From IMG/VR virus record IMGVR_UViG_3300030110_000630, positions 1 to 25,634 of that record: DNA of 25,634 nucleotides. The stretch is one strand, 5' to 3'. The notes beneath the pieces are model-generated. The model did not search any database. It saw only the letters and a list, made by a program, of their open reading frames with translations, and was not told where the DNA came from. This DNA is from a virus. The position numbers were made by a program, and so were the translations under genes. This document shows, one piece after another, positions 10,895-22,680 of the stretch (positions are counted from its first letter, which is position 1; each line of letters starts with the position of its first letter).

Positions 10895-12105
10895 TATAAA
10901 ATACTTGCTAGTCCTCCTCTTGCATAAAAACCTGCGTCTGAACCATAACCATAATCAGCTTCTTGTTGAGTTGTTGGTCCTGAGTCTCCTTTAAAATCAT
11001 TATCTCCACTACGTATAGTACCGGCACCACTTATATCAATACCACCGCCGCCGCCACCAGTTTTCTGCTTTTTAGTGTCGGTTTTAACATCTACAATTTT
11101 GTCTGTATTAAGTACCGTGTCTTTAAAATTTTTCTTAGCAACACCTACATTAATATAATTAGATATTAAGTTTGTTGTACCATCCATTGTTTCATTAAAT
11201 CCTTTTGCTTTCATATCAGCAGTAACAATACCTTTATTTAAATTATCCATATCGTCATCATTAAAACTATATTTATTTCTTAATGTTTTTTCTATACCAG
11301 ATTGTCTTTTGTCAAAAGTTTTCTCAGTCATTTGATTGTAATTATATCCAGCCATAATACCTTGTGGCGTATCGTATGCTTGTCCTGGTCCTAATACAAT
11401 TTGACCAATATTATTAATCCTTACGCCATCAAGACCTGCTTGATTTTCCATTATTGCTCTTCTGTTTATAGGCATGTACGGACTTATAACGTTTGATAAA
11501 AATTCAGCTCCTCTTTTAACAGTTCCTATACCTGGTATAAAATTTATTCCTCTTGATATAAGTTTTTGAAATTCTGTAGGTTCTTTATCTTTTCGTGCAG
11601 CTGCATCTAATCCATAATACTCTGGATACATTTCCATGTTTTTTATTGCTTCTGTTCTTGTTGAATAAAGAGAGTTACTTGGAATACTTGGATCACCTGG
11701 AAAACTAAATCTTTCTTCACCTGGAATAGTTCTTTCTTTTCCTAAACTATCAGTAAAAGTTTTTGGTCCAAACACTTCATCAAAATTTGCTATTGGTATT
11801 ATGTTTGGATTTGCAGGTTGATTTTTTTTTCCTACATAAGATAATTCATTAGCGTACCTTGCATCTTGTAAAGCGTACTTATTAGGGTTCATGTTTGTTA
11901 TTGTATTAGGGTCTGCATTGTAAACACTAAAATTATCTCCACCACCAGTAAAAGCATTAGTTGCAGGTATTCCAAAACTAGCAGTAACAGAACTTATATC
12001 TTGTTCTGTTTTTGGTAGATTAAGACCTAATCTATATTTTTCTTGTGGAAGATATTGATATGTTTTGTAAAGCTCTTGATCAGCGGGATTATAAAATGCT
12101 ACCAT
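10894..12105 (-). CDS. Virion-associated protein of unknown function, 403 aa
   Basis: The N-terminal half is rich in Pro, Asn and Tyr (NPADQELYKTYQYLPQEKYR). A hydrophobic GINFIPGIGTVKRGAEFL segment lies near residues 185-203, followed by a YMPINRRAIMENQAGLDG block, which is the most conserved-looking part. The C-terminal region is charged, then a six-glycine run (KTGGGGGGIDIS), and the chain ends YARGGLASIL. The terminal ARGGLAS motif recurs in marine phage structural proteins. The gene directly follows the tail-hub gene (TAATG overlap), suggesting a tail-tip or internal component. No catalytic motif was recognised. Confidence 0.65.
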   Translation of the reverse strand: MVAFYNPADQELYKTYQYLPQEKYRLGLNLPKTEQDISSVTASFGIPATNAFTGGGDNFSVYNADPNTITNMNPNKYALQDARYANELSYVGKKNQPANPNIIPIANFDEVFGPKTFTDSLGKERTIPGEERFSFPGDPSIPSNSLYSTRTEAIKNMEMYPEYYGLDAAARKDKEPTEFQKLISRGINFIPGIGTVKRGAEFLSNVISPYMPINRRAIMENQAGLDGVRINNIGQIVLGPGQAYDTPQGIMAGYNYNQMTEKTFDKRQSGIEKTLRNKYSFNDDDMDNLNKGIVTADMKAKGFNETMDGTTNLISNYINVGVAKKNFKDTVLNTDKIVDVKTDTKKQKTGGGGGGIDISGAGTIRSGDNDFKGDSGPTTQQEADYGYGSDAGFYARGGLASIL

Positions 12106-14279
12106 TATCTTCTTCCTCCAGGATGTATATCTAATCTAAATGTACCTAATTTCCAGTCTTGACTTGCTGCAGTATTAGATACTTTTAATGCTATAGATCT
12201 TGCTCGTAATCTTGTATCTTTTTTTGTCGTGCTTGATGTTATATCAAAATTTGAAGTAGTTGAAGAACTATTTGGGTATGTCCTAGTTACAAAACTTACT
12301 CTAGTCGAACCGGTCTGTGAAATAAAGTCTGGTATAAATCTACTAATTCTCATAATAAACTCACCGTCTCCTCGAGTATCTGGCATACCTACAGTTGCTC
12401 CGGTGTTACTTCTTCTTTGTGTAATATCAAAATCTCCAGAAGTAATGTTAGCAGTAATAGCCGTTACTACTCCTCCAGCGTCAATTTGATCGGTCCCTGT
12501 TTCATGTTCATAGTATATTGAAGTACCGTTTGTATTTCCAATAACATCGTAAGATGCATTGTCTCCATTATTATAAGCTGCTGCATGTGGTTTGTCAAAA
12601 ACAGCAGAGTCTCGCCAAGCTGTTCTAGCTAAACTCCCTGTTGTCCATATAGGACGTTTAGGTGATGACTCCAGATAATTATAAGTAACCACTCTATCAA
12701 TTACATTTGAACCATCTTGTGCATAAAACCAACTGACTTCAGTAAACAAATTATTTAATCCACAATTAATTAAATCTCTAGCTATAGTATTAAGATCGTC
12801 ATAAACATAGTCTTCTACTAAACAAGGCAATGATTTTAATTGTCCATCATAAGTAAAGAAACCATTCTCTGACATCCAATAAGCTTTACCATCTACTTCA
12901 ATACAAGCATTCTTACCTATTAATCCACAGTTAGTTCCTGCTTGTTCAAAAGAAAATGTAAATGGTTGGCCTACAAAACGCATTAAAAACAATGCTGTGT
13001 CGGTCCATACATAAATTGCATCTCTCCCTTTAATAGCGCCCATAATTTTAGATCCATCAGCAAGTCTTTGGGTACCTGCAGTATTATTTGCAGTTACAGT
13101 ATAAGAATTAGTTTGATCAATGTTTTCTTGATCTGAAAATCTTATAAACATATCATCTTGTGTAGTCTCATCACCTACAGTTGTTTCAGTTCCAAAAAAT
13201 ACTAAGTGTCTGTCGGGTGTAGATACTAATACATGTCTTGAAGCTGTGGGTGCATTAGCAAGTAGAGTAGCTCTATTATCTGTAGCATTTGTAGGTGAAG
13301 AATCCCATTCAAAACAAGCACCATTATAAATTAAGGCAATTAATTTAGTTCCAAAATTATCTAATACCCATAGACCTGGATCTAATGTTACATCATCTGT
13401 AGAAGATTCACCCCATGCTACATAATCAGAAATGTTACTTACTGTTACTCCAGCTGTATGGGCTGCTCTTGTAGTTCCGTTAACTGCTCGCGCTCCTCCA
13501 CTTAAAGTTCCTGTTGCGGTGTCATTATTTGTATAACTAATATCTTCTGATCCAATTCTAATTTCTCCTGAAGTAGGAAATGCAGTTGAATCAGCTACAA
13601 CTACAGTCGTAGTAGGATCGTCTGGAAGTGTTGTCGATAAAGTAGTCGTTGCAATACCTGCGGCAGTTCCACCATAGTTTGCTGTACCCCAACCAAAACC
13701 CCCTAACTGTTGTTCGGGACCTACTGTATAAAAAATTTTTGCTGTAGCGGTTCCCACATTATTTGTGGTTCCTGATGCGTTAGAATCCATCGTAATGGTA
13801 ATAGTTGTAGCGGTAGGGATAGATGCTGCCATAAATTTTTTATCTTCAAAAGCTGCATCGTTATAGCCTGAACCTGGAGGCGCGGTAACTGCATCTAAAA
13901 GAACAATATCGTCAACGTCCATTCCATGTGATGATGGAAACGTAATTGTAACTGTTGGTTGTCCGCTTACAGTAGAAAAATCACAGCCTGCTAGGGTAAG
14001 TCTAATCGGAGTAATATCATAGTAAGTACCACCAGAATATACGTACAACATTCTGTTAGTTCCAATAGCGGCATATTTAACACCTGCGTTATTATCAAAA
14101 TGATGTATTGCTCTGGCTGAACCAGTCAATTTGTCTTGGCCTAATTGGTCCCAACCCCCTATTTTTTCAGGAGTGCCGTATCTAAAACGAACATTATCCC
14201 CATCAAACCACTGTCCTTCAGCGCCTGTTTCGGTAACCTGTTTATTAAATCCTGGAGCAAAGCCTAATTTTTGTAGCAT
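12105..14279 (-). CDS. P22 gp10-like tail hub / DNA-stabilization protein, 724 aa
   Basis: The N-terminus (GFAPGFNKQVTETGAEGQWF, then VRFRYGTPEKIGGWDQLG) has the arrangement typical of phage P22 gp10-type stabilization proteins: a short leader, then 'W-D-x-x-x-VRF-x-x-G-PE-K-x-GGW'. Repeated beta segments with Tyr/Trp-rich turns (RAIHHFDNNAGVKYAAIGT, GVTVSNISDYVAWGES, HVLVSTPDRHLVFFGTE, AIYVWTDTALFLMRF) fit the beta-propeller hub fold of that family, which closes the short tail and prevents DNA leakage. Residues about 211-283 form an inserted beta module (TAFPTSGEIRIGSEDISY) that also occurs in two neck proteins of this window. The start has AAAGGT 6-7 bases upstream. The gene follows the oxygenase island after a 65-base gap. 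Confidence 0.78.
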   Translation of the reverse strand: MLQKLGFAPGFNKQVTETGAEGQWFDGDNVRFRYGTPEKIGGWDQLGQDKLTGSARAIHHFDNNAGVKYAAIGTNRMLYVYSGGTYYDITPIRLTLAGCDFSTVSGQPTVTITFPSSHGMDVDDIVLLDAVTAPPGSGYNDAAFEDKKFMAASIPTATTITITMDSNASGTTNNVGTATAKIFYTVGPEQQLGGFGWGTANYGGTAAGIATTTLSTTLPDDPTTTVVVADSTAFPTSGEIRIGSEDISYTNNDTATGTLSGGARAVNGTTRAAHTAGVTVSNISDYVAWGESSTDDVTLDPGLWVLDNFGTKLIALIYNGACFEWDSSPTNATDNRATLLANAPTASRHVLVSTPDRHLVFFGTETTVGDETTQDDMFIRFSDQENIDQTNSYTVTANNTAGTQRLADGSKIMGAIKGRDAIYVWTDTALFLMRFVGQPFTFSFEQAGTNCGLIGKNACIEVDGKAYWMSENGFFTYDGQLKSLPCLVEDYVYDDLNTIARDLINCGLNNLFTEVSWFYAQDGSNVIDRVVTYNYLESSPKRPIWTTGSLARTAWRDSAVFDKPHAAAYNNGDNASYDVIGNTNGTSIYYEHETGTDQIDAGGVVTAITANITSGDFDITQRRSNTGATVGMPDTRGDGEFIMRISRFIPDFISQTGSTRVSFVTRTYPNSSSTTSNFDITSSTTKKDTRLRARSIALKVSNTAASQDWKLGTFRLDIHPGGRR

Positions 14280-14344: not shown

Positions 14345-14830
14345 TTAAAACACATCGTACCAAATAGCAAGAGTATATCGTTTTCCTTTAGTGACTGGAT
14401 TAACTTTATGCCAAACCACATCTTTAAAACTAACGACACTTCCCTTTTTTGGCTTATGTATTTTTCTAGTTGAAGAAAAAGCCTCTGAATAATCGGTAGC
14501 AGTGACTAATTCTCCCCCTTCAAAATCGTCGTTTAAAAAAAGTATAGATGTTCCTTGATATATTGGATAATCTCTATGCCAATCCATACCTTGACCTTCA
14601 CCCCACTCTACAACTTCCATATTTTTAATGTAAAAAGATGTATCTATTTCTTGATGAGAATAGTTATGTATAAAAGGAATTAATTGTTTAATAGTTTCTT
14701 CTTTATTTATTAAATCATAAAGTCTTAATACTTTTTTATTATTAAATACTTGTTTAGCTTCATCATTATTATGGTACAGGTCTATGAACCATTGGCACAT
14801 TTTATCATGAAAAAAATTTTCTTTATTCAT
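14345..14830 (-). CDS. 2OG-Fe(II) oxygenase, prolyl-hydroxylase-like (island gene 8)
   Basis: A 161-residue jelly-roll oxygenase. The iron triad is visible as DWHRDY (His85, Asp87) and VVWHKVNPV (His141); KRYTLAIW supplies the 2-oxoglutarate-binding Arg151 ten residues later. The GGELVT segment between them is the usual beta-turn of prolyl-4-hydroxylase-like enzymes. At 161 residues it is close to the minimal catalytic core. Such enzymes couple oxidative decarboxylation of 2-oxoglutarate to hydroxylation of a protein, nucleotide or small molecule; the substrate is unknown here. It is the last gene of the island; its ATG overlaps the preceding stop (TAATG) and it has no Shine-Dalgarno motif. 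Confidence 0.85.
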   Translation of the reverse strand: MNKENFFHDKMCQWFIDLYHNNDEAKQVFNNKKVLRLYDLINKEETIKQLIPFIHNYSHQEIDTSFYIKNMEVVEWGEGQGMDWHRDYPIYQGTSILFLNDDFEGGELVTATDYSEAFSSTRKIHKPKKGSVVSFKDVVWHKVNPVTKGKRYTLAIWYDVF

Positions 14831-15453
14831 TATTTACAATCGTGAAAAAAATTAGTTAAAGCAAATCTACCTAAACCTTTGTTTCTGTTTTCGGGTTCAA
14901 TAGATAGAGGGGTCACAGAATGCAAATAATAACTTGGAAAAAACACCATACGATTATGCTTACATTCTATAGTTTGATTAATTTGAGGAAAGACAAAGTC
15001 TCCTCCATTAAATTTTTTAGGTTGCTTATAAAACCAAATAATACTTGTAAATTGTCTACTATCATAATGTGGTTTATATTCTTGACTGTTATCATAATAA
15101 CTAATCATTGTGTGTATTTTATCAGCACCTTTAAACTGAATACCTTGAGGCATTAAGTCTTCAACAAACTGTTTAAATTTAGGTGTAAGGTATTTTTGAA
15201 TAGAAGACACAATTGTAGAATATTTTAAATACTCTTTATTAAAAATAGCCATAGGATATATTCTCCAACTGTTGCTTAAAGCCTCATAGTTTTCCATAGC
15301 AGAATTTAATGCAGATGATTCTAAATTTTGAGGTTTATAATAAAAATCCAATTCTTTCCAAATTAATTGTTCTTCTTCTGGTGAATACCAATTATCTGCA
15401 ACGATAAATGGAAACACACTATCTTTACCTACACCTTTAACTTCTTGTCTCAT
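14830..15453 (-). CDS. 2OG-Fe(II) oxygenase, prolyl-hydroxylase-like (island gene 7)
   Basis: A 207-residue protein. The catalytic half contains EYKPHYDSRQF (His129, Asp131), then FNGGDFVFP, then FFPSYYLHSVTPL (His178), and GRFALTNFF, where Arg196 is the expected 2-oxoglutarate ligand. The FPS-x-x-x-H-x-V-x-P spacing is typical of the P4H/PiuC group. The N-terminal 110 residues hold no recognisable domain. Its stop overlaps the next ATG (TAATG) and its own ATG is inside an ATGA overlap. It is the one downstream island gene with a good ribosome-binding site (AGAGGAG about 6 bases before the ATG), so it may be independently initiated. Confidence 0.85.
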   Translation of the reverse strand: MRQEVKGVGKDSVFPFIVADNWYSPEEEQLIWKELDFYYKPQNLESSALNSAMENYEALSNSWRIYPMAIFNKEYLKYSTIVSSIQKYLTPKFKQFVEDLMPQGIQFKGADKIHTMISYYDNSQEYKPHYDSRQFTSIIWFYKQPKKFNGGDFVFPQINQTIECKHNRMVFFPSYYLHSVTPLSIEPENRNKGLGRFALTNFFHDCK

Positions 15454-16064
15454 TTTGACTCCTCTGGCACTCCTACAAATTCTCTATTGTCAAATTTGTT
15501 TTTTATAGATTCTTCGTTTTCAACATTGTAGTGAAGAAAAACTTGCGCACAGTTTTCACCTTTAAAAGGCTCTCTCCAATGTTCTAATAAACAACCTTTA
15601 TAAAGTAACATATCACCTGGATCTAAATCTATCTGTATTCCTTTAGAATTTATTTTACCAGAAGGTTCTAAAAAAATTGGCCATGGATCACCACCTAGAT
15701 TTAATGTAGTAGATATTTCACAAGACATCCTATCTTTGTGTCTGTGTAAGATATCGTCTTTTTTATATATTCTACAATATGAATACATTTCGATTAATTT
15801 ACTTTCTGTTTCTTTCTCCATCAAAGGTTTTAATTTTGATAAAAGTATTTCCATAGCTGTATCGCTGTATACTGAATATGTATTTAAAACTTGTGGATCT
15901 CCCCAATGACCAAATTGTTTATTAAAAGGAGATATTATTTTATTTTGAAACATGTAATTAGCTATCCTTCTTCTTAAACAAATATAATCATAAATAAAAT
16001 TACTCATTTCTTTTGAAATAACTTTTTTTATAACTGAATAATTATGCGTGTTAAACTGGTTCAT
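15450..16064 (-). CDS. 2OG-Fe(II) oxygenase-like protein (island gene 6)
   Basis: A 204-residue protein with YCRIYKKDDILHRHKDRMSC, giving His109-x-Asp111 as first and second iron ligands, and LEHWREPF, giving His162 as the third. LNLGGDPWPIFLEP and DLDPGDMLLYKG are the intervening core strands. The residue that usually binds 2-oxoglutarate (Arg, about ten residues after the distal His) appears as Gln174 in NCAQVFLHY, so co-substrate binding may differ or use another residue. This subtype is distinct from the prolyl-hydroxylase-like copies beside it. Start and stop lie in ATGA overlaps; there is no Shine-Dalgarno motif. Confidence 0.78.
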   Translation of the reverse strand: MNQFNTHNYSVIKKVISKEMSNFIYDYICLRRRIANYMFQNKIISPFNKQFGHWGDPQVLNTYSVYSDTAMEILLSKLKPLMEKETESKLIEMYSYCRIYKKDDILHRHKDRMSCEISTTLNLGGDPWPIFLEPSGKINSKGIQIDLDPGDMLLYKGCLLEHWREPFKGENCAQVFLHYNVENEESIKNKFDNREFVGVPEESK

Positions 16065-16663
16065 ATGGTAAAGTCAAAGTTTATAACATATCTATGTTTA
16101 TATTTAATAGGAGAATTTCCCGCATGGTATTGATGTCCATCAAAATAAATAGCATCTCCTTGTTTAGGTGTATTTTGAAATATAATTTTTTTATCAATGT
16201 CTTTTAAAACATTATCTAAATTGTTTTCTTTATTAAAAAATTTATCAAATATAAAAGTGTCTCCGTCAGAGTCATTTATATAATATACTAAAGTTTTATA
16301 GGGTTGATCAAACTCAAATAAATCTGTGTGTGGTTTATTAAATAAAAATTCATTTCTATCTGGGTGTTGAAATGTAAGTCGTAATCTTACACGAACAACT
16401 TTGTTAACTTTAACACCTGTTTTTTGTGTAAAGAAATATAAAATAGGTCTAAACAAACTCCAATACATAGAATCCTCTTGGCCCTCTATTACCAATCCAT
16501 GACTAAATCCTATATTATCTAAAAATTTTATTCCGGCTGTGGGCAAACTTGTAGAATTATATCCAATACTAGGTGTGTAATAAAACGGTATTTCTTCTAC
16601 TGTTTGTTTTAGTTCTTCTTGATATACCTCTGGTACTAGGTTTGTTAATAATTGTGGCTTCAT
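16061..16663 (-). CDS. 2OG-Fe(II) oxygenase-like protein (island gene 5)
   Basis: A 200-residue protein. Arg-rich core strand VVRVRLRLTF is followed by NKPHTDLFEF (His112, Asp114), YKTLVYYINDSDGDTFIF, and FDGHQYHAGNSP, where His180 is the likely distal iron ligand, with HRYVINFDF supplying Arg191. The H-x-G-x-SP context after the distal His resembles phage and cyanobacterial oxygenases of unknown substrate. Motif layout is complete, so the protein is predicted active. It is joined to both neighbours by ATGA overlaps and lacks a Shine-Dalgarno motif. Confidence 0.8.
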   Translation of the reverse strand: MKPQLLTNLVPEVYQEELKQTVEEIPFYYTPSIGYNSTSLPTAGIKFLDNIGFSHGLVIEGQEDSMYWSLFRPILYFFTQKTGVKVNKVVRVRLRLTFQHPDRNEFLFNKPHTDLFEFDQPYKTLVYYINDSDGDTFIFDKFFNKENNLDNVLKDIDKKIIFQNTPKQGDAIYFDGHQYHAGNSPIKYKHRYVINFDFTI

Positions 16664-17271
16664 TTTAATTTTAAATCCGATACATAAAAATTGTGTTTAA
16701 TGTCTCCTTTTAAAAAAGTATTAAAAGATAATGATACTCTAGTGTTAGGTGAATTATTGACATCAACGCTGTGCCATACGCTTGAAGGAAATAGTATCAA
16801 CATATTTTTTTCTACTAATATTATTTCTCCTAATGTGTTTTCATTTGTCCATTTTTTTCTTTTCCAACAAAGAGGCCACAAATTAGTTTGAGAGCTTTGA
16901 ATTGTAAAATTAGGCATGTCTTTATCTACGTTTATAAAATAAACTCCAGATAACATACTATTTGAATGATGGTGCATAGCATGTCTACTACCGGTTTTTA
17001 AAAAATTAACCCAAGAATTTGTAATGTACAATTCGTCTTCACATTGCATAACATCTTCTTTGTATTCATTGATACATTTTTGTATGTTGTTTTTTAAGTT
17101 TTTTACTTCAGGTTTGTCTAATACATAATTATCGTCGGAAGCAATATGGCTTAAATATTCATTATTTTTATCTTTTGTTTCTATATTTAATAAAAAATTT
17201 TCTTCTTCTTGATTTAACTTATCAAGTTTAAATAAAGCTATAGGTGTAGGAAATAAATTTATCTTTATCAT
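16660..17271 (-). CDS. Putative 2OG-Fe(II) oxygenase, TIGR02466-like (island gene 4)
   Basis: A 203-residue protein that starts INLFPTPIALFKL, a typical opening of the TIGR02466 / 2OG-FeII_Oxy_5 group. ITNSWVNFLKTG precedes MHHHSNSMLSGVYF, where His100 and His102 align with the H-x-H of the sister gene at 17891-18442. The distal motif is FPSSVWHSVDV (His167), followed by NTRVSLSFN with Arg178. The acidic ligand of the canonical H-x-D is absent; this is a feature of the family rather than obvious decay. Biochemical function of the family is not established to my knowledge. ATGA overlaps join it to both neighbours. Confidence 0.8.
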   Translation of the reverse strand: MIKINLFPTPIALFKLDKLNQEEENFLLNIETKDKNNEYLSHIASDDNYVLDKPEVKNLKNNIQKCINEYKEDVMQCEDELYITNSWVNFLKTGSRHAMHHHSNSMLSGVYFINVDKDMPNFTIQSSQTNLWPLCWKRKKWTNENTLGEIILVEKNMLILFPSSVWHSVDVNNSPNTRVSLSFNTFLKGDIKHNFYVSDLKLK

Positions 17272-17894
17272 TTTAATATTTCTATTTTTTCTATAAAAGA
17301 AATAAGAACCAAACGTTCTTTATCTTTTTCTTGTATTTCAGAAGCATGAAACATCTGTCCATCAAACGCTACGAGTCTATTATATTCACCAGTAAAAGAC
17401 ACAGTTTTATAAAACATAGAATTATTTTTTATTTTTAATTCTTGAATTTCTGTTTTTTCTTTTTCAGAATATTTATCATGATTTTTAAAATAATCCTGTT
17501 TACGATTTTGATCTAAGGACCATCCTAAATTGCTTTTTAAAAAATCATCGCCTCTACAGTTTTCTTTTATATTATATAAAGAAGTTCCAGAAGTGCTGTC
17601 TGGGTCTAAATAAACAATACCTGTAATTAAACAATCATCTTTATGAACCCAACCATCATTAATATCATAATCATTTTTTTGAAAATATGTTCTTGCAAAG
17701 AAATTTACTTTACTGCCTGGATAAAAACAGCTTAATATTTTCATATTAAAAGAGTCAAACAGGTCATTATTTATTTCATGAAGAGGCTTAGATCGAACTC
17801 CGCGTATGTATCCTACATTTGAGTAGTCAATTGAATTTGCTAATTTAACTAATTTATTTGGGTTTTTAAAAATACCGTCTCTAGATGCAATCAT
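17268..17894 (-). CDS. 2OG-Fe(II) oxygenase-like protein, DUF6445-like (island gene 3)
   Basis: A 208-residue protein. NFFARTYFQKN precedes DGWVHKDDCLITGIVYL (His84, Asp86), and FDGQMFHASEI supplies distal His183, with KERLVLISF supplying Arg194. Between them is a long, charged, lysine-rich insertion (about residues 110-165) not seen in the sister genes. The layout resembles the DUF6445 group of phage and bacterial proteins, recalled without a search. The DNA here is very AT-rich (10 G/C in 17401-17460 by hand count). ATGA overlaps join it to both neighbours, and there is no Shine-Dalgarno motif. Confidence 0.75.
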   Translation of the reverse strand: MIASRDGIFKNPNKLVKLANSIDYSNVGYIRGVRSKPLHEINNDLFDSFNMKILSCFYPGSKVNFFARTYFQKNDYDINDGWVHKDDCLITGIVYLDPDSTSGTSLYNIKENCRGDDFLKSNLGWSLDQNRKQDYFKNHDKYSEKEKTEIQELKIKNNSMFYKTVSFTGEYNRLVAFDGQMFHASEIQEKDKERLVLISFIEKIEILK

Positions 17895-18442
17895 ATTATA
17901 TTAAAGGATATAGATATCCTCTCCTCTTGGTTTAAGTTAGGCATGACATAATGTTTTAACCAACTAGGAAATAAAAATAATTTATTTATACTAGGAGTAA
18001 ACCACCAGGAAGAACTATACTTATTATATTCTTGCCAATCACAATTATCCCAATCATACACCATGACGTCTTTTGCAGGGTGGATAAAGACTAGATTGCC
18101 ACTGTTATCACTTACTTGACTATAATAAACGCCTGAAAGTATTGAACCTGGATGGGTATGTTCTATGTTATAATCTTTATAATTATTAATATTAATCCAC
18201 ATATTTTCTATAGATAAAGTTTTTTTAATTTTAAGGTCTTTATTAAAAATATTTACATGCTCCATAATTTTATCAACAATATTAATTTTATCCTGAACGT
18301 TAGAGGATTGCCAACCAGTTAAATTACTTTTAATTACTCCGTTAGATTTGTGTTTTATATCTAAACAATTTAATGATATTGCTTTGGCATCTAAATCTAG
18401 TTGAGATTCATAGACCGGACACGTAAATAAATTATTAATCAT
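17891..18442 (-). CDS. Putative 2OG-Fe(II) oxygenase, TIGR02466-like (island gene 2)
   Basis: A 183-residue protein starting MINNLFTCPVYESQL. Residues 81-107 carry MWININNYKDYNIEHTHPGS and then ILSGVYY, the hallmark of the TIGR02466 family. WLKHYVMP (His164) and ERISISFN (Arg175) give the distal half of the site. H-x-H (His95, His97) followed by PGS replaces the canonical H-x-D. The gene could start 24 bases further upstream at 18466, but the ATG at 18442 lies in an ATGA overlap with the preceding stop, exactly as in its neighbours, and gives the usual family N-terminus. It is most like the gene at 16660-17271, although one gene lies between them. Confidence 0.8.
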   Translation of the reverse strand: MINNLFTCPVYESQLDLDAKAISLNCLDIKHKSNGVIKSNLTGWQSSNVQDKINIVDKIMEHVNIFNKDLKIKKTLSIENMWININNYKDYNIEHTHPGSILSGVYYSQVSDNSGNLVFIHPAKDVMVYDWDNCDWQEYNKYSSSWWFTPSINKLFLFPSWLKHYVMPNLNQEERISISFNII

Positions 18443-19056
18443 TTCCAAGGGGGACCTAAACACCAAAGAACTAATGAAGTTCTTTCTCCACTTAATACAG
18501 GTCTTACTTGATGAGGGACAAAAGAAGGAAACACCACTACAGTTCCCTTTGGTTTTATTCTATCTAAAGTTATAACGTTTCGACCATGCTCATTATTTCT
18601 AAGATCTATTTCAAAATCACCACCAGTATATTCGCTAGGATCTGTAAGATTTATAGTTGCAGATAATTTTCTAACCTTGCCCTTATAATTAGGATGAGAC
18701 TGATCCCCAAAAGGTTCTGGTAAATCATCAGAATGCCAACCGTAAAATTGATCTCCATCTTCAGTATCTGATCTATACTTAGTAAACTGCATAGATTCAC
18801 TCCAATCCCAATTAAAATTCCAACCTGCGTTTTTGTTTGCTGTATGAATATAAGGAAGGACTTCATCGTAAATCCATTTATCATCTAAAAAACAAATATC
18901 AGATTTTCTTATATTTGCATTGTCAGACACTTTACCTTCTGGCCCAATCAAACCTTTTTGTAATACTTGTGAGTTTCCATATTTTACAATTTCATCACAA
19001 ATTTTTTCAGGAATTGCTTTTATAAAGCACCAATAGTATTCTTTCAATCCAATCAT
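18439..19056 (-). CDS. 2OG-Fe(II) oxygenase, P4H/PiuC-type (island gene 1)
   Basis: A 205-residue enzyme and first gene of the island. FYGWHSDDLP (His108, Asp110), KLSATINLTDPSEYTGGDFE, KGTVVVFPSFVPHQVRPV (His182) and GERTSLVLWCLGPPW (Arg192) form a complete prolyl-4-hydroxylase/PiuC-type site. This is the best-conserved member and closely follows the type found in many cyanophages and marine phages. The product should hydroxylate a protein or peptide side chain, with substrate unknown. A sigma70-like promoter lies 15-42 bases upstream, and only a weak AAAGA precedes the ATG. Its stop overlaps the next start (ATGA). Confidence 0.9.
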   Translation of the reverse strand: MIGLKEYYWCFIKAIPEKICDEIVKYGNSQVLQKGLIGPEGKVSDNANIRKSDICFLDDKWIYDEVLPYIHTANKNAGWNFNWDWSESMQFTKYRSDTEDGDQFYGWHSDDLPEPFGDQSHPNYKGKVRKLSATINLTDPSEYTGGDFEIDLRNNEHGRNVITLDRIKPKGTVVVFPSFVPHQVRPVLSGERTSLVLWCLGPPWK

Positions 19057-19104: not shown

Positions 19105-19929
19105 TTAAGACCACTCGCCGGCTTTAACATACGTATAAACAGCTTCCATATTCCAAACACCAGAACCGTAAAAACTAAATGGTTGTGCAGGTGCTTTAAT
19201 ACGAACAACTCCTGATCCACCAGCTCCTCCTGGCGTACCTGATGAGTGTCCGTCACCGCCTTGTCCTGAATTAGCAGAACCAGAACTTCCACTAGCACCA
19301 CCTGGGCCACCTTGACATTTAGGTGCTCCTGGAAAAAGTGTAGGCTCTACAGACGGTCCGCCTGAAGTTCCTGAAGCCGCGCCTCCCGCGCCGCCTCCAC
19401 CGCCTCGTCCGTTTGGCGTAGCCGTTCCTGGATTTCCTTGTGGTGGACTAAAAGGAGGTGTATTTCCTGTTCCTTGAGATCCCGCTCCTGGGCCTCCTGG
19501 ACCTCCCGATCCTCCTCCGCCTGATCCTCCCGGACCGCCGGAATCGGTTGCATTTCTTCCTGCTTTTCCACCACCTGTTGCAGTGTACATTGTTGAACCT
19601 TCACTGCCACCAGGATTAAAAATTGAATCTGCTCCTTTAGTATTACCGCTAGTAAAACCACCTTGGCCACCAGCTCCAACCGTTATAGCGACTGGTCCTG
19701 AAATAGGAACACCAGTTATTTGACGAATTCCGCCTGCGCCTCCTCCGCCACCGGACTGGCCCATTGCTCCGCCGCCGCCGGCTATGACACAAATATCAAC
19801 AGAACTTACCGCAGCTTGAGGTAAAGTATAAGTTCCATCAGAGTTAAAAGTTTCAGTAGCTTCAGTAGTTTGACCACTGTTTTTAACTGATGCTCCTGTT
19901 ACTCCACCGTTTAATCTGTTAGTTGCCAT
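19105..19929 (-). CDS. Glycine/proline-rich tail adhesin-like protein, 274 aa
   Basis: After a Thr/Ser-rich start, TFNSDGTYTLP and DICVIAGGGGAMG open a Gly-rich domain of the type used in phage tail-fibre tips and adhesins (Gly_rich_2-like). Residues about 50-245 are mainly Gly, with Pro, Ser and Ala in stretches such as GGPGGPGAGSQGTG and PPFSPPQGNPG. Such domains can pack as polyglycine-II helices. The C-terminus (VYTYVKAGEWS) is a short conserved-looking cap. The glycine/proline codons make this an island of high G+C (about 58-70% in 60-base blocks near 19321-19440). It is the last structural gene before the oxygenases. A GGGAG about 8 bases upstream supports the start. Receptor binding is inferred. 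Confidence 0.75.
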   Translation of the reverse strand: MATNRLNGGVTGASVKNSGQTTEATETFNSDGTYTLPQAAVSSVDICVIAGGGGAMGQSGGGGGAGGIRQITGVPISGPVAITVGAGGQGGFTSGNTKGADSIFNPGGSEGSTMYTATGGGKAGRNATDSGGPGGSGGGGSGGPGGPGAGSQGTGNTPPFSPPQGNPGTATPNGRGGGGGAGGAASGTSGGPSVEPTLFPGAPKCQGGPGGASGSSGSANSGQGGDGHSSGTPGGAGGSGVVRIKAPAQPFSFYGSGVWNMEAVYTYVKAGEWS

Positions 19930-19931
19930 AA

Positions 19932-20552
19932 TTAATCTCCCGTGTAATTTGTATCTAAAAATTGTGCAAATGTAAACCCACTATCTGACCACGTGCCACT
20001 AGCTGGATCCCATGCATACAATGTTACTTGATCATCGCTTGGTCTTGGTTGACCTTCTGCAGCTCCACCATCCTCTAATTGACCAACATGTCTTTGTTTA
20101 TGTTCGTCCCAAGATAAAGCAGTTGCTTTTCCATCAATTTGATAATTGTCTGGATGACTTTCATTAGGCCATTGTATAGGTGCTTTCCATTGACATGTAT
20201 CTTCATCAAGAGTCCAAGAATCATGCGTTATTGCAAAATTACATTTCATTGGTCTTGGTGGTATGAAAGCATCTTTTGTTGCATCATAGGTGTGACCTAT
20301 TCCTGCGTAATTTTTTCTAAATGCTTTTGTTTGATCAGCACTTTCTGAAGGAACTCCTTCTGAATCAAAGGTATAGTGTTTACCAGCTCTAGTTCCGAAA
20401 GAAGTTTTTTTCCAATAGTTTGGAGAAATATCTCCATGAACTGATGTTAAAAAAGATATTGCGTTTTCTTCAGATCCATTTTCATCAGAGTCGCTTACAA
20501 CATGAACTGAAACAACTGTGTTGTTTTCATCGATTTTAGCATAATGTGCCAT
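19932..20552 (-). CDS. Conserved phage virion protein, tail-fibre-associated type
   Basis: A 206-residue protein beginning MAHYAKIDENNTVVSVHVV, with FRKNYAGIGHTYDATKDAFI and PPRPMKC in the middle and DSWTLDEDTCQWKAP afterwards. This layout is common in T4-like cyanophages and marine phages, in genes next to tail fibres. The protein is beta-rich, acidic and Trp-rich, with no catalytic motif. It may be a fibre or baseplate-surface component. A GGAG about 8-10 bases upstream supports the start; the Gly-rich gene follows after 2 bases. Confidence 0.75.
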   Translation of the reverse strand: MAHYAKIDENNTVVSVHVVSDSDENGSEENAISFLTSVHGDISPNYWKKTSFGTRAGKHYTFDSEGVPSESADQTKAFRKNYAGIGHTYDATKDAFIPPRPMKCNFAITHDSWTLDEDTCQWKAPIQWPNESHPDNYQIDGKATALSWDEHKQRHVGQLEDGGAAEGQPRPSDDQVTLYAWDPASGTWSDSGFTFAQFLDTNYTGD

Positions 20553-21717: not shown

Positions 21718-22680
21718 TTAAGCTACATCTGTATAAGATGTATTACCTGTTATGTCAATATCATTATAATTTGTATTTCCAGTAATATCAATATCAAAAT
21801 AACCTAATGGGGATACACTTCCTACTGCAGTTGTAGCTTCTACACCACTTAGTCCTACACTCATTTCTGTAGGGGATATTGACCCTACGGCGGACGTTGC
21901 ATTTTGGCCAGATATTAAATAAGCTGTTTCAATAATAACTGAACCAACACTAGTTGTGGCTCCAACACCATCAACGTCAACTAATAAAACAGAATCAATT
22001 GTAATAGCTCCAACTTCAGTTGTTAAAGCACTTGGTGCTGTTAATCCAACTACATCTGCAGGAGTTAACGCTCCTACTGCAGTTGTTGCAACTCCTGCAC
22101 TACTTATTCCAACAGCCATTTCTGTAGGAGATATTAAACCCGCAGAAGAAGTTAAAGCACTTGGTGCTGTTAATGTTCCAACAAAATCTACAATAATGGT
22201 AGGCGATCCAACAGAACTTGTTGAAGTTTGTCCTGATAATCCTTGTACGTCTGCAGGATTAAGGGTGAACATTCCCCAACCATTGTTACCCCAACTTACT
22301 TCTCCCCAACCAGAAGCACCAATATTGGTAATTAATTCTCCACTTGATTCTACATCTACAACAACTGTTAAACCAGATTGTCCCCAATTTTCTTGACCCC
22401 ATGCATCTTGGCCCCAACCAACATTAACTGCGGCTGTAATTGTAGGTGTACCTACTGATGCTGTTAAAGCACTTGGTGCTGTTATAACTTCATCAAGACC
22501 AGATTGTCCCCAGTTTTCTGTTCCCCAAGTATCAGATCCCCATCCTTGTTCAGGAAAAGCAAGTGGTGTTCCTAATGATGTTGTAAGATCAAAACCTGTT
22601 AATGAAATTGTAGTTACGTTTTGTTGACCCCAATCTCCTTGCGACCAGGTGCTACCGGATTCGTTCCAAGTGTTAGCCAT
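21718..22680 (-). CDS. Trp-Gly and PSALT repeat virion protein, 320 aa
   Basis: A repeat protein. The first 140 residues carry three Trp-Gly boxes (WGSDTWGTENWGQSG, WGQDAWGQENWGQSG, WGEVSWGNNGWG), each with three Trp. The rest is built from roughly 20-residue units with the consensus LT-x-PSALT/ATTAVG followed by S-x-SPTEM, and it ends in two IDITGNT units. Alternating small hydrophobic and Thr/Ser residues suggest a solenoid or stack of beta-hairpins. Such proteins occur in marine phage tail modules, probably as fibre or tail-surface components. No catalytic motif. The gene is the immediate upstream neighbour of the fibre-like gene. Confidence 0.72.
   Translation of the reverse strand: MANTWNESGSTWSQGDWGQQNVTTISLTGFDLTTSLGTPLAFPEQGWGSDTWGTENWGQSGLDEVITAPSALTASVGTPTITAAVNVGWGQDAWGQENWGQSGLTVVVDVESSGELITNIGASGWGEVSWGNNGWGMFTLNPADVQGLSGQTSTSSVGSPTIIVDFVGTLTAPSALTSSAGLISPTEMAVGISSAGVATTAVGALTPADVVGLTAPSALTTEVGAITIDSVLLVDVDGVGATTSVGSVIIETAYLISGQNATSAVGSISPTEMSVGLSGVEATTAVGSVSPLGYFDIDITGNTNYNDIDITGNTSYTDVA
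21721..22660 (-). repeat. Intragenic direct repeats in the Trp-Gly/PSALT gene
   Basis: A 22-base segment that encodes TAPSALT occurs essentially unchanged at 22022, 22151 and 22463 (plus-strand left ends). Trp-Gly-box copies occur near 22270-22320, 22378-22425 and 22500-22550, and two IDITGNT-coding copies near 21735-21795. Identity at DNA level, not just protein level, suggests recent duplication or gene conversion of units. Confidence 0.65.

Follow-up and report, generated by a model that had tools for sequence, protein, structure and literature searches.

Introduction

Few unexplained genes of marine phages are as common as those for 2-oxoglutarate (2OG)-Fe(II) oxygenases. Two reports count 24 such genes in the phage S-SCSM1 (PMC9602691) and ten in S-CREM1 (PMC9964418), and eight non-orthologous kinds, co-located with genes called 'ferrochelatase', have been described across the HTVC023P-type phages (Wittmers et al. 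2022, PMC9599517). Iyer et al. 2021 (PMC7824862) found a halogenase, a carbamoyltransferase, 2OG oxygenases and a methylase together in a cyanophage and read the set as decoration of secondary metabolites or capsule, and Sullivan et al. 2010 (PMC3037559) proposed modulation of 2-oxoglutarate as the role of cyanophage oxygenases. In a Western English Channel time series, phrog_61 and phrog_2954 were enriched in seasonal viruses, with phrog_2954 read as ferrochelatase (PMC11561400). Here we describe eight consecutive oxygenase genes, transcribed in the order Ox8, 7, 6, 5, 4, 3, 2, 1, in a 25.6-kb viral fragment from IMG/VR (record IMGVR_UViG_3300030110_000630, positions 1 to 25,634), the whole of which is called the window. 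The initial annotation, made from the letters of the window, had taken single or paired oxygenases as the known state; the counts above indicate that this was an understatement.

Profiles and folds establish all eight genes of the array as members of the 2OG-Fe(II) oxygenase superfamily. Multi-2OG sets in marine phages have already been reported; what is added here is the contiguous, overlapping layout, the re-identification of four families, the size range of the slot and the linkage to a putative adhesin. The closest named relatives of the window are the HTVC023P-type podoviruses 023Pt_psg01, HTVC027P and HTVC023P. Cultured podoviruses of this type have the SAR11 strain HTCC1062 as their host, and SAR11 bacteria are probably also the host of the window phage.

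Identity of the eight oxygenases

The array occupies positions 14345-19056 of the minus strand with zero intergenic space, its open reading frames (ORFs) encoding 161, 207, 204, 200, 203, 208, 191 and 205 residues from Ox1 to Ox8. The genes are listed in the order of transcription.

18439-19056, minus strand: Ox8, first gene of the array, PF13640/phrog_61 family with HSD...H...R (PF13640 E=2.5e-12; phrog_61 E=1.8e-35)
17891-18442, minus strand: Ox7, PF13759/phrog_81 family with H-x-H as first pair (PF13759 E=4e-24)
17268-17894, minus strand: Ox6, DUF6445-related, phrog_1644 family with HKD...H...R (PF20043 E=4e-9; phrog_1644 E=1e-23)
16660-17271, minus strand: Ox5, PF13759/phrog_81 family with H-x-H as first pair (PF13759 E=3e-19)
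16061-16663, minus strand: Ox4, no Pfam family, phrog_274 with HTD...H...R (phrog_274 E=3e-28)
15450-16064, minus strand: Ox3, no Pfam family, phrog_2954 with invariant HxDR...HWR (phrog_2954 E=5e-50)
14830-15453, minus strand: Ox2, PF13640/phrog_61 family with HYD...H...R (PF13640 E=1e-10)
14345-14830, minus strand: Ox1, PF13640 and phrog_2297 family with HRD...H...R (PF13640 E=8e-13; phrog_2297 E=3e-19)

Ox1-Ox8 were assigned by applying the Pfam gathering cut-offs, above which six proteins score: Ox1, Ox2 and Ox8 as PF13640, Ox5 and Ox7 as PF13759, and Ox6 as DUF6445. The Pfam search yielded no match for Ox3 and Ox4. Iterated profiles nevertheless connect all eight, since the Ox1 profile retrieves all but Ox6 (Ox3 weakly, at 6e-5) and the Ox7 profile retrieves Ox6 at 4e-16, tying DUF6445 to the 2OG profiles. 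The nearest solved relative of Ox8 is the PKHD-type hydroxylase 3dkq (E=2e-8).

Because the Ox3 profile found no relative among the PDB sequences, a fold search was needed for this protein. AlphaFold2 models of Ox3 and Ox4 were built on family alignments and searched with Foldseek, with VIA-align used for Ox3, and both are predicted to be 2OG-type double-stranded beta-helices, with a predicted local distance difference test score (pLDDT) of 95.2 for Ox3 and 84.5 for Ox4. The Foldseek matches listed for Ox3 are Fe/2OG oxygenases, the first being the P. putida prolyl-4-hydroxylase (P4H), and VIA-align gives Z values of 16-17.5 to SnoN, P4H and PHD2, with 162-178 of the 204 residues aligned to oxygenases. 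The Ox4 model has 562 PDB matches at E<=0.001; those listed are all Fe/2OG oxygenases, led by SptF, AsqJ and PHD2. Pairwise identity among the eight proteins is negligible except for Ox5/Ox7 and Ox1/Ox8, which rules out recent tandem duplication as the origin of the array.

Metal site and selection

Six genes have H-x-D as the first metal-binding pair, the exceptions being Ox5 and Ox7 with H-x-H. An Arg, the residue expected to bind 2OG, follows the distal His by 10-12 residues in seven of the eight; Ox3 lacks it, and its invariant arginines R98, R112 and R164 are candidates for this role. Across orthologues of Ox1, Ox2, Ox3, Ox4, Ox6 and Ox8, the HxD pair and the distal His are conserved at least at the 90-95% level. 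The conserved residues are H108, D110, H182 and R192 in Ox8 (at least 95% conserved, 61 members), H112, D114, H180 and R191 in Ox4 (the first two invariant, the others at least 90%, 37 sequences), and HxDR..HWR in Ox3 (75 of 75 relatives). Conservation in relatives is also found for H129, D131, H178 and R190 of Ox2, H85, D87, H141 and R151 of Ox1, H103, H105, H172 and R183 of Ox7, and H100, H102, H167 and R178 of Ox5; the distal pair of Ox6 is H183-R194. The H-x-H of Ox5 and Ox7 is a normal variant of the PF13759 family and not a sign of decay, because it is also present in the PF13759 structures 3bvc and 2rg4.

The motif is not by itself proof of an oxygenase. A loose HxD/E/H...H...R/K pattern is matched by 33% of oxygenase sequences after shuffling and by 15% of unrelated ORFs of the same size, and the pattern alone was therefore rejected as a test.

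The ratio of nonsynonymous to synonymous substitution rates (dN/dS), measured against relatives, is ~0.1-0.45 for each of the eight genes, implying that each is maintained on its own account. An assembly artefact or a set of decaying genes is also rejected, since all the frames are open and constrained and their order recurs in the related loci L090-L095, give or take one or two members.

Families with misleading labels

The PHROG database labels phrog_61 and phrog_81 as '2OG-Fe(II) oxygenase' and is inconsistent for the rest of the array: phrog_2954 (Ox3) is named 'ferrochelatase', phrog_274 (Ox4) 'DNA endonuclease V', phrog_1644 (Ox6) 'minor coat protein' and phrog_2297 (Ox1) 'DNA endonuclease'. 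The members of these four families in the window are 2OG-Fe(II) oxygenases. Ferrochelatase, a two-domain alpha/beta chelatase, was rejected for Ox3, of which the 204 residues are modeled as one 2OG-type beta-helix and which has no ferrochelatase Pfam match. Because of the Ox3 model and its Foldseek and VIA-align results, the protein called 'ferrochelatase' in pelagiphages and cyanophages has, on structure prediction, a 2OG-type oxygenase fold. Likewise, the small helical pyrimidine-dimer glycosylase of T4, the DenV-type endonuclease V, was rejected for Ox4, whose model is a beta-helix with HxD...H...R.

The cyanophage S-SM1 provides a parallel: its gene named denV has no Pfam match and is scored at 1e-38 by the Ox4 profile. 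The oxygenase array of this phage (L107:11393-17646, NC_015282) is largely concealed by the labels DNA endonuclease, denV, ferrochelatase (twice) and hypothetical. Renaming phrog_2954, phrog_274, phrog_2297 and phrog_1644 matters, as the ecological interpretations in PMC9599517 and PMC11561400 depend on phrog_2954 being a ferrochelatase.

Layout and neighboring genes

The ORF finder placed the start of Ox7 at a TTG (18466; 17891-18466). The ATG at 18442, which gives 183 residues, is the more likely start because it leaves a 4-base overlap like the other junctions, and with it all junctions of the array are overlaps of 1-4 nucleotides. Overlaps of this size are typical of translational coupling. 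The G+C content of the array is 25-32% by kilobase, against 34-47% on both flanks, and the same difference is seen in the medians of the whole survey described below (0.296 for oxygenase genes versus 0.375 for flanking structural genes). A search for internal promoters or terminators splitting the operon was uninformative, the matches being no commoner than in shuffles. Three neighbors bear on the interpretation.

19932-20552, minus strand: phrog_7759 protein of 206 residues (phrog_7759 E=2e-32), with homologues at the equivalent place in S-SM1, S-RSM4, HTVC008M and HTVC023P
19105-19929, minus strand: glycine-rich, adhesin-like protein of 274 residues, directly upstream of the array (PF21722 Gly_rich_2 E=2.5e-12)
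12105-14279, minus strand: conserved tail/stabilization protein that closes the slot downstream (phrog_3287 E=2e-93; 80 relatives), used as the survey anchor

The glycine-rich gene is separated from the array by 48 bases, and the array from the tail/stabilization gene by 65. We infer from its position among the tail genes and its domain that the PF21722 protein is an adhesin. Further upstream, at 21718-22680, the window encodes a Trp-rich structural protein of 320 residues with 12 Trp and repeated WGxxxWG motifs, which is conserved upstream of the islands; it is a conceivable halogenase target, yet it is found both with and without a halogenase.

The descriptive part of the initial annotation is well borne out. 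Eight adjacent genes of 161-208 residues with H-x-D or H-x-H and a distal His do lie on this strand, the Arg is present in seven of eight as it had stated, the 1-4-base overlaps hold given the ATG start of Ox7, and the genes sit within a structural operon. The checks it had proposed agree: profiles place six proteins in Pfam families, the predicted beta-helices cover Ox3 and Ox4, and the metal-site residues are conserved among homologues for all eight.

The same slot in related loci

The survey comprised 80 IMG/VR loci fetched via the downstream tail protein and 16 fetched via Ox4, and the slot is whole in 33 of them. These complete slots contain 3-11 oxygenase genes with a median of 6, and eight or more are present in 8 of the 33. 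Runs of similar length occur in cultured cyanophages. S-SM1 has nine oxygenases in one run adjoining the tail fibers and interrupted by just two other genes; S-RSM4 and Syn9 have about nine each, judging by profile matches and annotation; and S-CREM1 has nine oxygenase-like genes in a row, one of them labeled JmjC, after a PF21722 'collagen-like protein' and a halogenase. Eight as an exceptional number is thus rejected.

The 448 oxygenase ORFs of the survey fall into ~93 subfamilies at 40% identity. The Ox3 family (subfamily 0, 77 ORFs) and the Ox8 family (subfamily 1, 62 ORFs) form a core around which the other subfamilies rotate. Even the nearest relatives differ from the window: L090, L091, L093 and L094 have nine oxygenases, with an additional gene between Ox3 and Ox2, and L092 has ten. 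In pairs of loci with a similar anchor (bit ratio of at least 0.8), oxygenase content has a mean similarity of only 0.23, implying that the slot changes its genes far more quickly than the anchor changes. The window array is therefore one example of a widespread, fast-changing enzyme set and not a singular system.

Other tailoring enzymes share the slot in relatives. Twelve loci have halogenases (PF04820, E to 1e-107), three have NodU-type carbamoyltransferases (PF16861) and one has a methyltransferase-like gene. The place of the window Ox7 and Ox6 is taken by a tryptophan halogenase in L098 and L102-L105. The closest solved relative of the slot halogenases is the cyanophage enzyme VirX1, and flavin-dependent tryptophan halogenases of this type were located at L098:2920-4485, L014:7181-8719, L040:5292-6830, L048:6567-7949 and L038:3862-5397, with O-carbamoyltransferases of NodU/CmcH type at L014:5725-7185, L034:6623-8098 and L040:3974-5305. 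In the window neither a halogenase nor a carbamoyltransferase was found, whereas L014 and L040 have both in the equivalent slot. S-PM2 (NC_006820, 121319-122608) retains a tryptophan halogenase frame with one internal TAA stop, perhaps a decayed copy. In L085 (4536-5039) and L021 (5166-5669), proteins of 167 residues adjoin the oxygenases; their C-termini resemble the last strands of the 2OG fold (FIMFPS...) and have no distal His, so that an inactive oxygenase is a possible reading of the sequence.

Link to the putative glycine-rich adhesin

A protein was counted as glycine-rich if it had a 60-residue stretch with at least 36% Gly and lay within two genes upstream of the array. Such a protein is present in 31 of the 33 complete loci. 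The trio of PF21722, phrog_7759 and an oxygenase cluster recurs in HTVC023P-type podoviruses, the pelagimyophage HTVC008M and the cyanomyoviruses S-SM1 and S-RSM4. The freshwater phage DSL-LC04 combines PF21722 and phrog_7759 with a single oxygenase, S-CAM8 has phrog_7759 inside its oxygenase cluster, and Sf-CH11 has between two PF21722 proteins three oxygenases, with a halogenase ahead of the third, and a 'ferrochelatase'. In 15 complete phages the distance of PF21722 from the largest cluster of oxygenases is shorter than expected from circular shifts (Fisher p=2.8e-5), and in nine genomes phrog_7759 lies near oxygenases (p=5e-4) and near PF21722 (p=2e-6). Independence is overstated by these p-values, given that the genomes are related to one another and that every partner is in the variable tail-fiber region.

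Discussion

We tentatively conclude that the array is best explained as a hypervariable island whose tailoring enzymes hydroxylate adhesins of the virion, and assign this reading a probability of about 0.45; the substrate is putative. The reading is favored because all enzymes of the window island are tailoring enzymes and none builds a scaffold, and because of the position of the island in a structural run, its glycine-rich neighbor, near-constant in different phage families, and the rapid rotation of its members. The closest solved folds of Ox3 also include protein-prolyl hydroxylases. In such an island the eight genes would represent one allele. The late structural operon would give rise to the oxygenases as well as to the PF21722 adhesin and its phrog_7759 partner, with co-transcription and late timing. 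Each enzyme is small, has a single domain with the prolyl-hydroxylase-like architecture of a 2OG-Fe(II) oxygenase, and is presumably active. Acting jointly during tail assembly, the enzymes may add hydroxyl groups to several side chains, whether of Pro, Asn, Asp or Lys, in the adhesin or in fibers near it, and for the P4H-like members collagen-type proline hydroxylation seems to be the simplest guess. More decorations could come from the tryptophan halogenases, O-carbamoyltransferases and methyltransferase of related phages. Swapping of members would then alter the chemistry of the receptor-contacting surface, and possibly adsorption, as swapping of fiber genes alters its sequence.

Several observations weigh against this proposal. 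The cited literature on multi-2OG phages reports no modified residue or activity, and a literature search on hydroxylated phage tail fibers found no paper. The folds are matched equally well by protein hydroxylases and by the small-molecule oxygenases SnoN, AsqJ and FtmOx1. The genomic association is also imperfect: L032 and L061 have no glycine-rich neighbor, HTVC027P has three oxygenases and no PF21722, Melnitz carries PF21722 and phrog_7759 far from its oxygenases, and many cyanophage oxygenases are located elsewhere. Proximity of PF21722 to any oxygenase in the nine genomes has only p=0.013, and part of the association may reflect shared location. Co-variation of oxygenase content with the fiber genes beyond descent is not significant (partial Mantel r=0.15, p=0.11), and the glycine-rich protein does not convincingly change in composition with the number of oxygenases (among ten residues Gln came out best, at an uncorrected p=0.03); the same holds for its Trp count in relation to halogenases. 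It is because these tests of coupled change and composition signatures gave nothing significant that the substrate assignment is held at the level given above.

Tailoring of a small molecule or glycan is an unlikely alternative, in which the oxygenases, with the halogenase and carbamoyltransferase if present, would build a decorated metabolite or modify a capsular sugar. The cyanophage cluster with halogenase, carbamoyltransferase, 2OG oxygenases and methylase (PMC7824862) is in line with it, as are the VirX1-like halogenases and the carbamoyltransferases inside the islands of relatives and the presence of antibiotic-pathway oxygenases such as SnoN among the top fold matches. However, the window has oxygenases only, without scaffold enzyme, halogenase or carbamoyltransferase; the island lies within a structural run and next to the adhesin in 31 of 33 relatives; and an ordered pathway is hard to square with free rotation of members.

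Hydroxylation of host translation factors or surface proteins to the benefit of the phage seems rather improbable. The P. putida P4H acts on EF-Tu, and small single-domain oxygenases of this class are established modifiers of proteins; the top Foldseek matches of Ox3 are this P4H, one of them in the EF-Tu complex. The position among structural genes nevertheless suggests production with virion parts and not early takeover, oxygenase content turns over whereas host translation factors do not, and the association with the adhesin would be left unexplained.

We regard a metabolic drain as very improbable. The 2OG oxygenases can turn over 2OG without a prime substrate, and burning it to succinate might shift nitrogen signaling or supply energy, as in the model proposed for cyanophages by Sullivan et al. 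(PMC3037559). One active enzyme would suffice for this purpose, however, whereas eight unrelated, individually conserved genes, each with dN/dS in the range given above, imply distinct substrates, and neither the position nor the partners would be explained. Nucleic-acid modification or repair of AlkB or TET type, which the labels 'DNA endonuclease' (Ox1 family) and 'DNA endonuclease V' (Ox4 family) and the location of certain oxygenases of other phages near replication genes might suggest, is hardly credible, given that the eight have no significant AlkB or TET/JBP match (Oxygenase-NA is sub-threshold for Ox1, E=0.019), that the members of the labeled families here are plain oxygenase folds, and that the genes lie among tail genes.

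The interpretation in the initial annotation is thus partly supported, with the substrate still putative. Its dedicated modification system stands as the most economical reading of distinct, maintained enzymes, but a fixed eight-step series does not: members turn over between relatives, which speaks against it and in favor of a rotating set with a single class of target. Among its candidate substrates a tail protein is best backed by gene context, while drainage of 2OG leaves many unrelated enzymes unexplained.

A wider proposal is more doubtful than the one made for the window, namely that an island for adhesin tailoring is common to several families of abundant marine phages, and that in it ~90 rotating oxygenase subfamilies, halogenases and carbamoyltransferases diversify a glycine-rich adhesin post-translationally. 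If it were true, the receptor-binding surface would be varied by chemistry and not by sequence alone. Should virion adhesins be what the islands modify, a large class of 'auxiliary metabolic genes' would be host-recognition machinery rather than metabolic. The idea of adhesin modification is testable on phages already cultured, and the array makes the function of phage 2OG oxygenases addressable via the virion composition of such phages.

Comparison with known systems

With respect to individual enzymes, the array proteins resemble the prolyl-4-hydroxylases (P. putida P4H, 4j25/4iw3; chlorella virus vCPH, 5c5t) and PHD2 in fold and in the layout of the metal site, and these are the best solved matches of Ox3, but sequence identity is 10-18% and Ox3 lacks the Arg/Lys past the distal His. 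The predicted structure of Ox3 resembles a protein prolyl-4-hydroxylase in fold only, and proline hydroxylation is putative. With ferrochelatase Ox3 has the name alone in common, being modeled as a beta-helix with invariant HxDR...HWR.

With respect to gene sets, S-SCSM1 and S-CREM1 are like the window in having many divergent PF13640/PF13759 oxygenases in one genome (PMC9602691, PMC9964418); they differ from the window phage in being large T4-like cyanobacterial myoviruses whose oxygenases are interpreted as host metabolic reprogramming. The enzyme mix of the cluster of Iyer et al. 2021 (PMC7824862) is shared with the relatives L014 and L040, whereas the window has oxygenases only. Closest to the window are the phages of Wittmers et al. 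2022 (PMC9599517), which are of the same type; their 2OG genes were called 'not adjacent' and ferrochelatase was seen as a heme/iron partner. Here, by contrast, the genes are contiguous, overlapping and up to 11 in number, and the 'ferrochelatase' itself has a predicted 2OG-type oxygenase fold.

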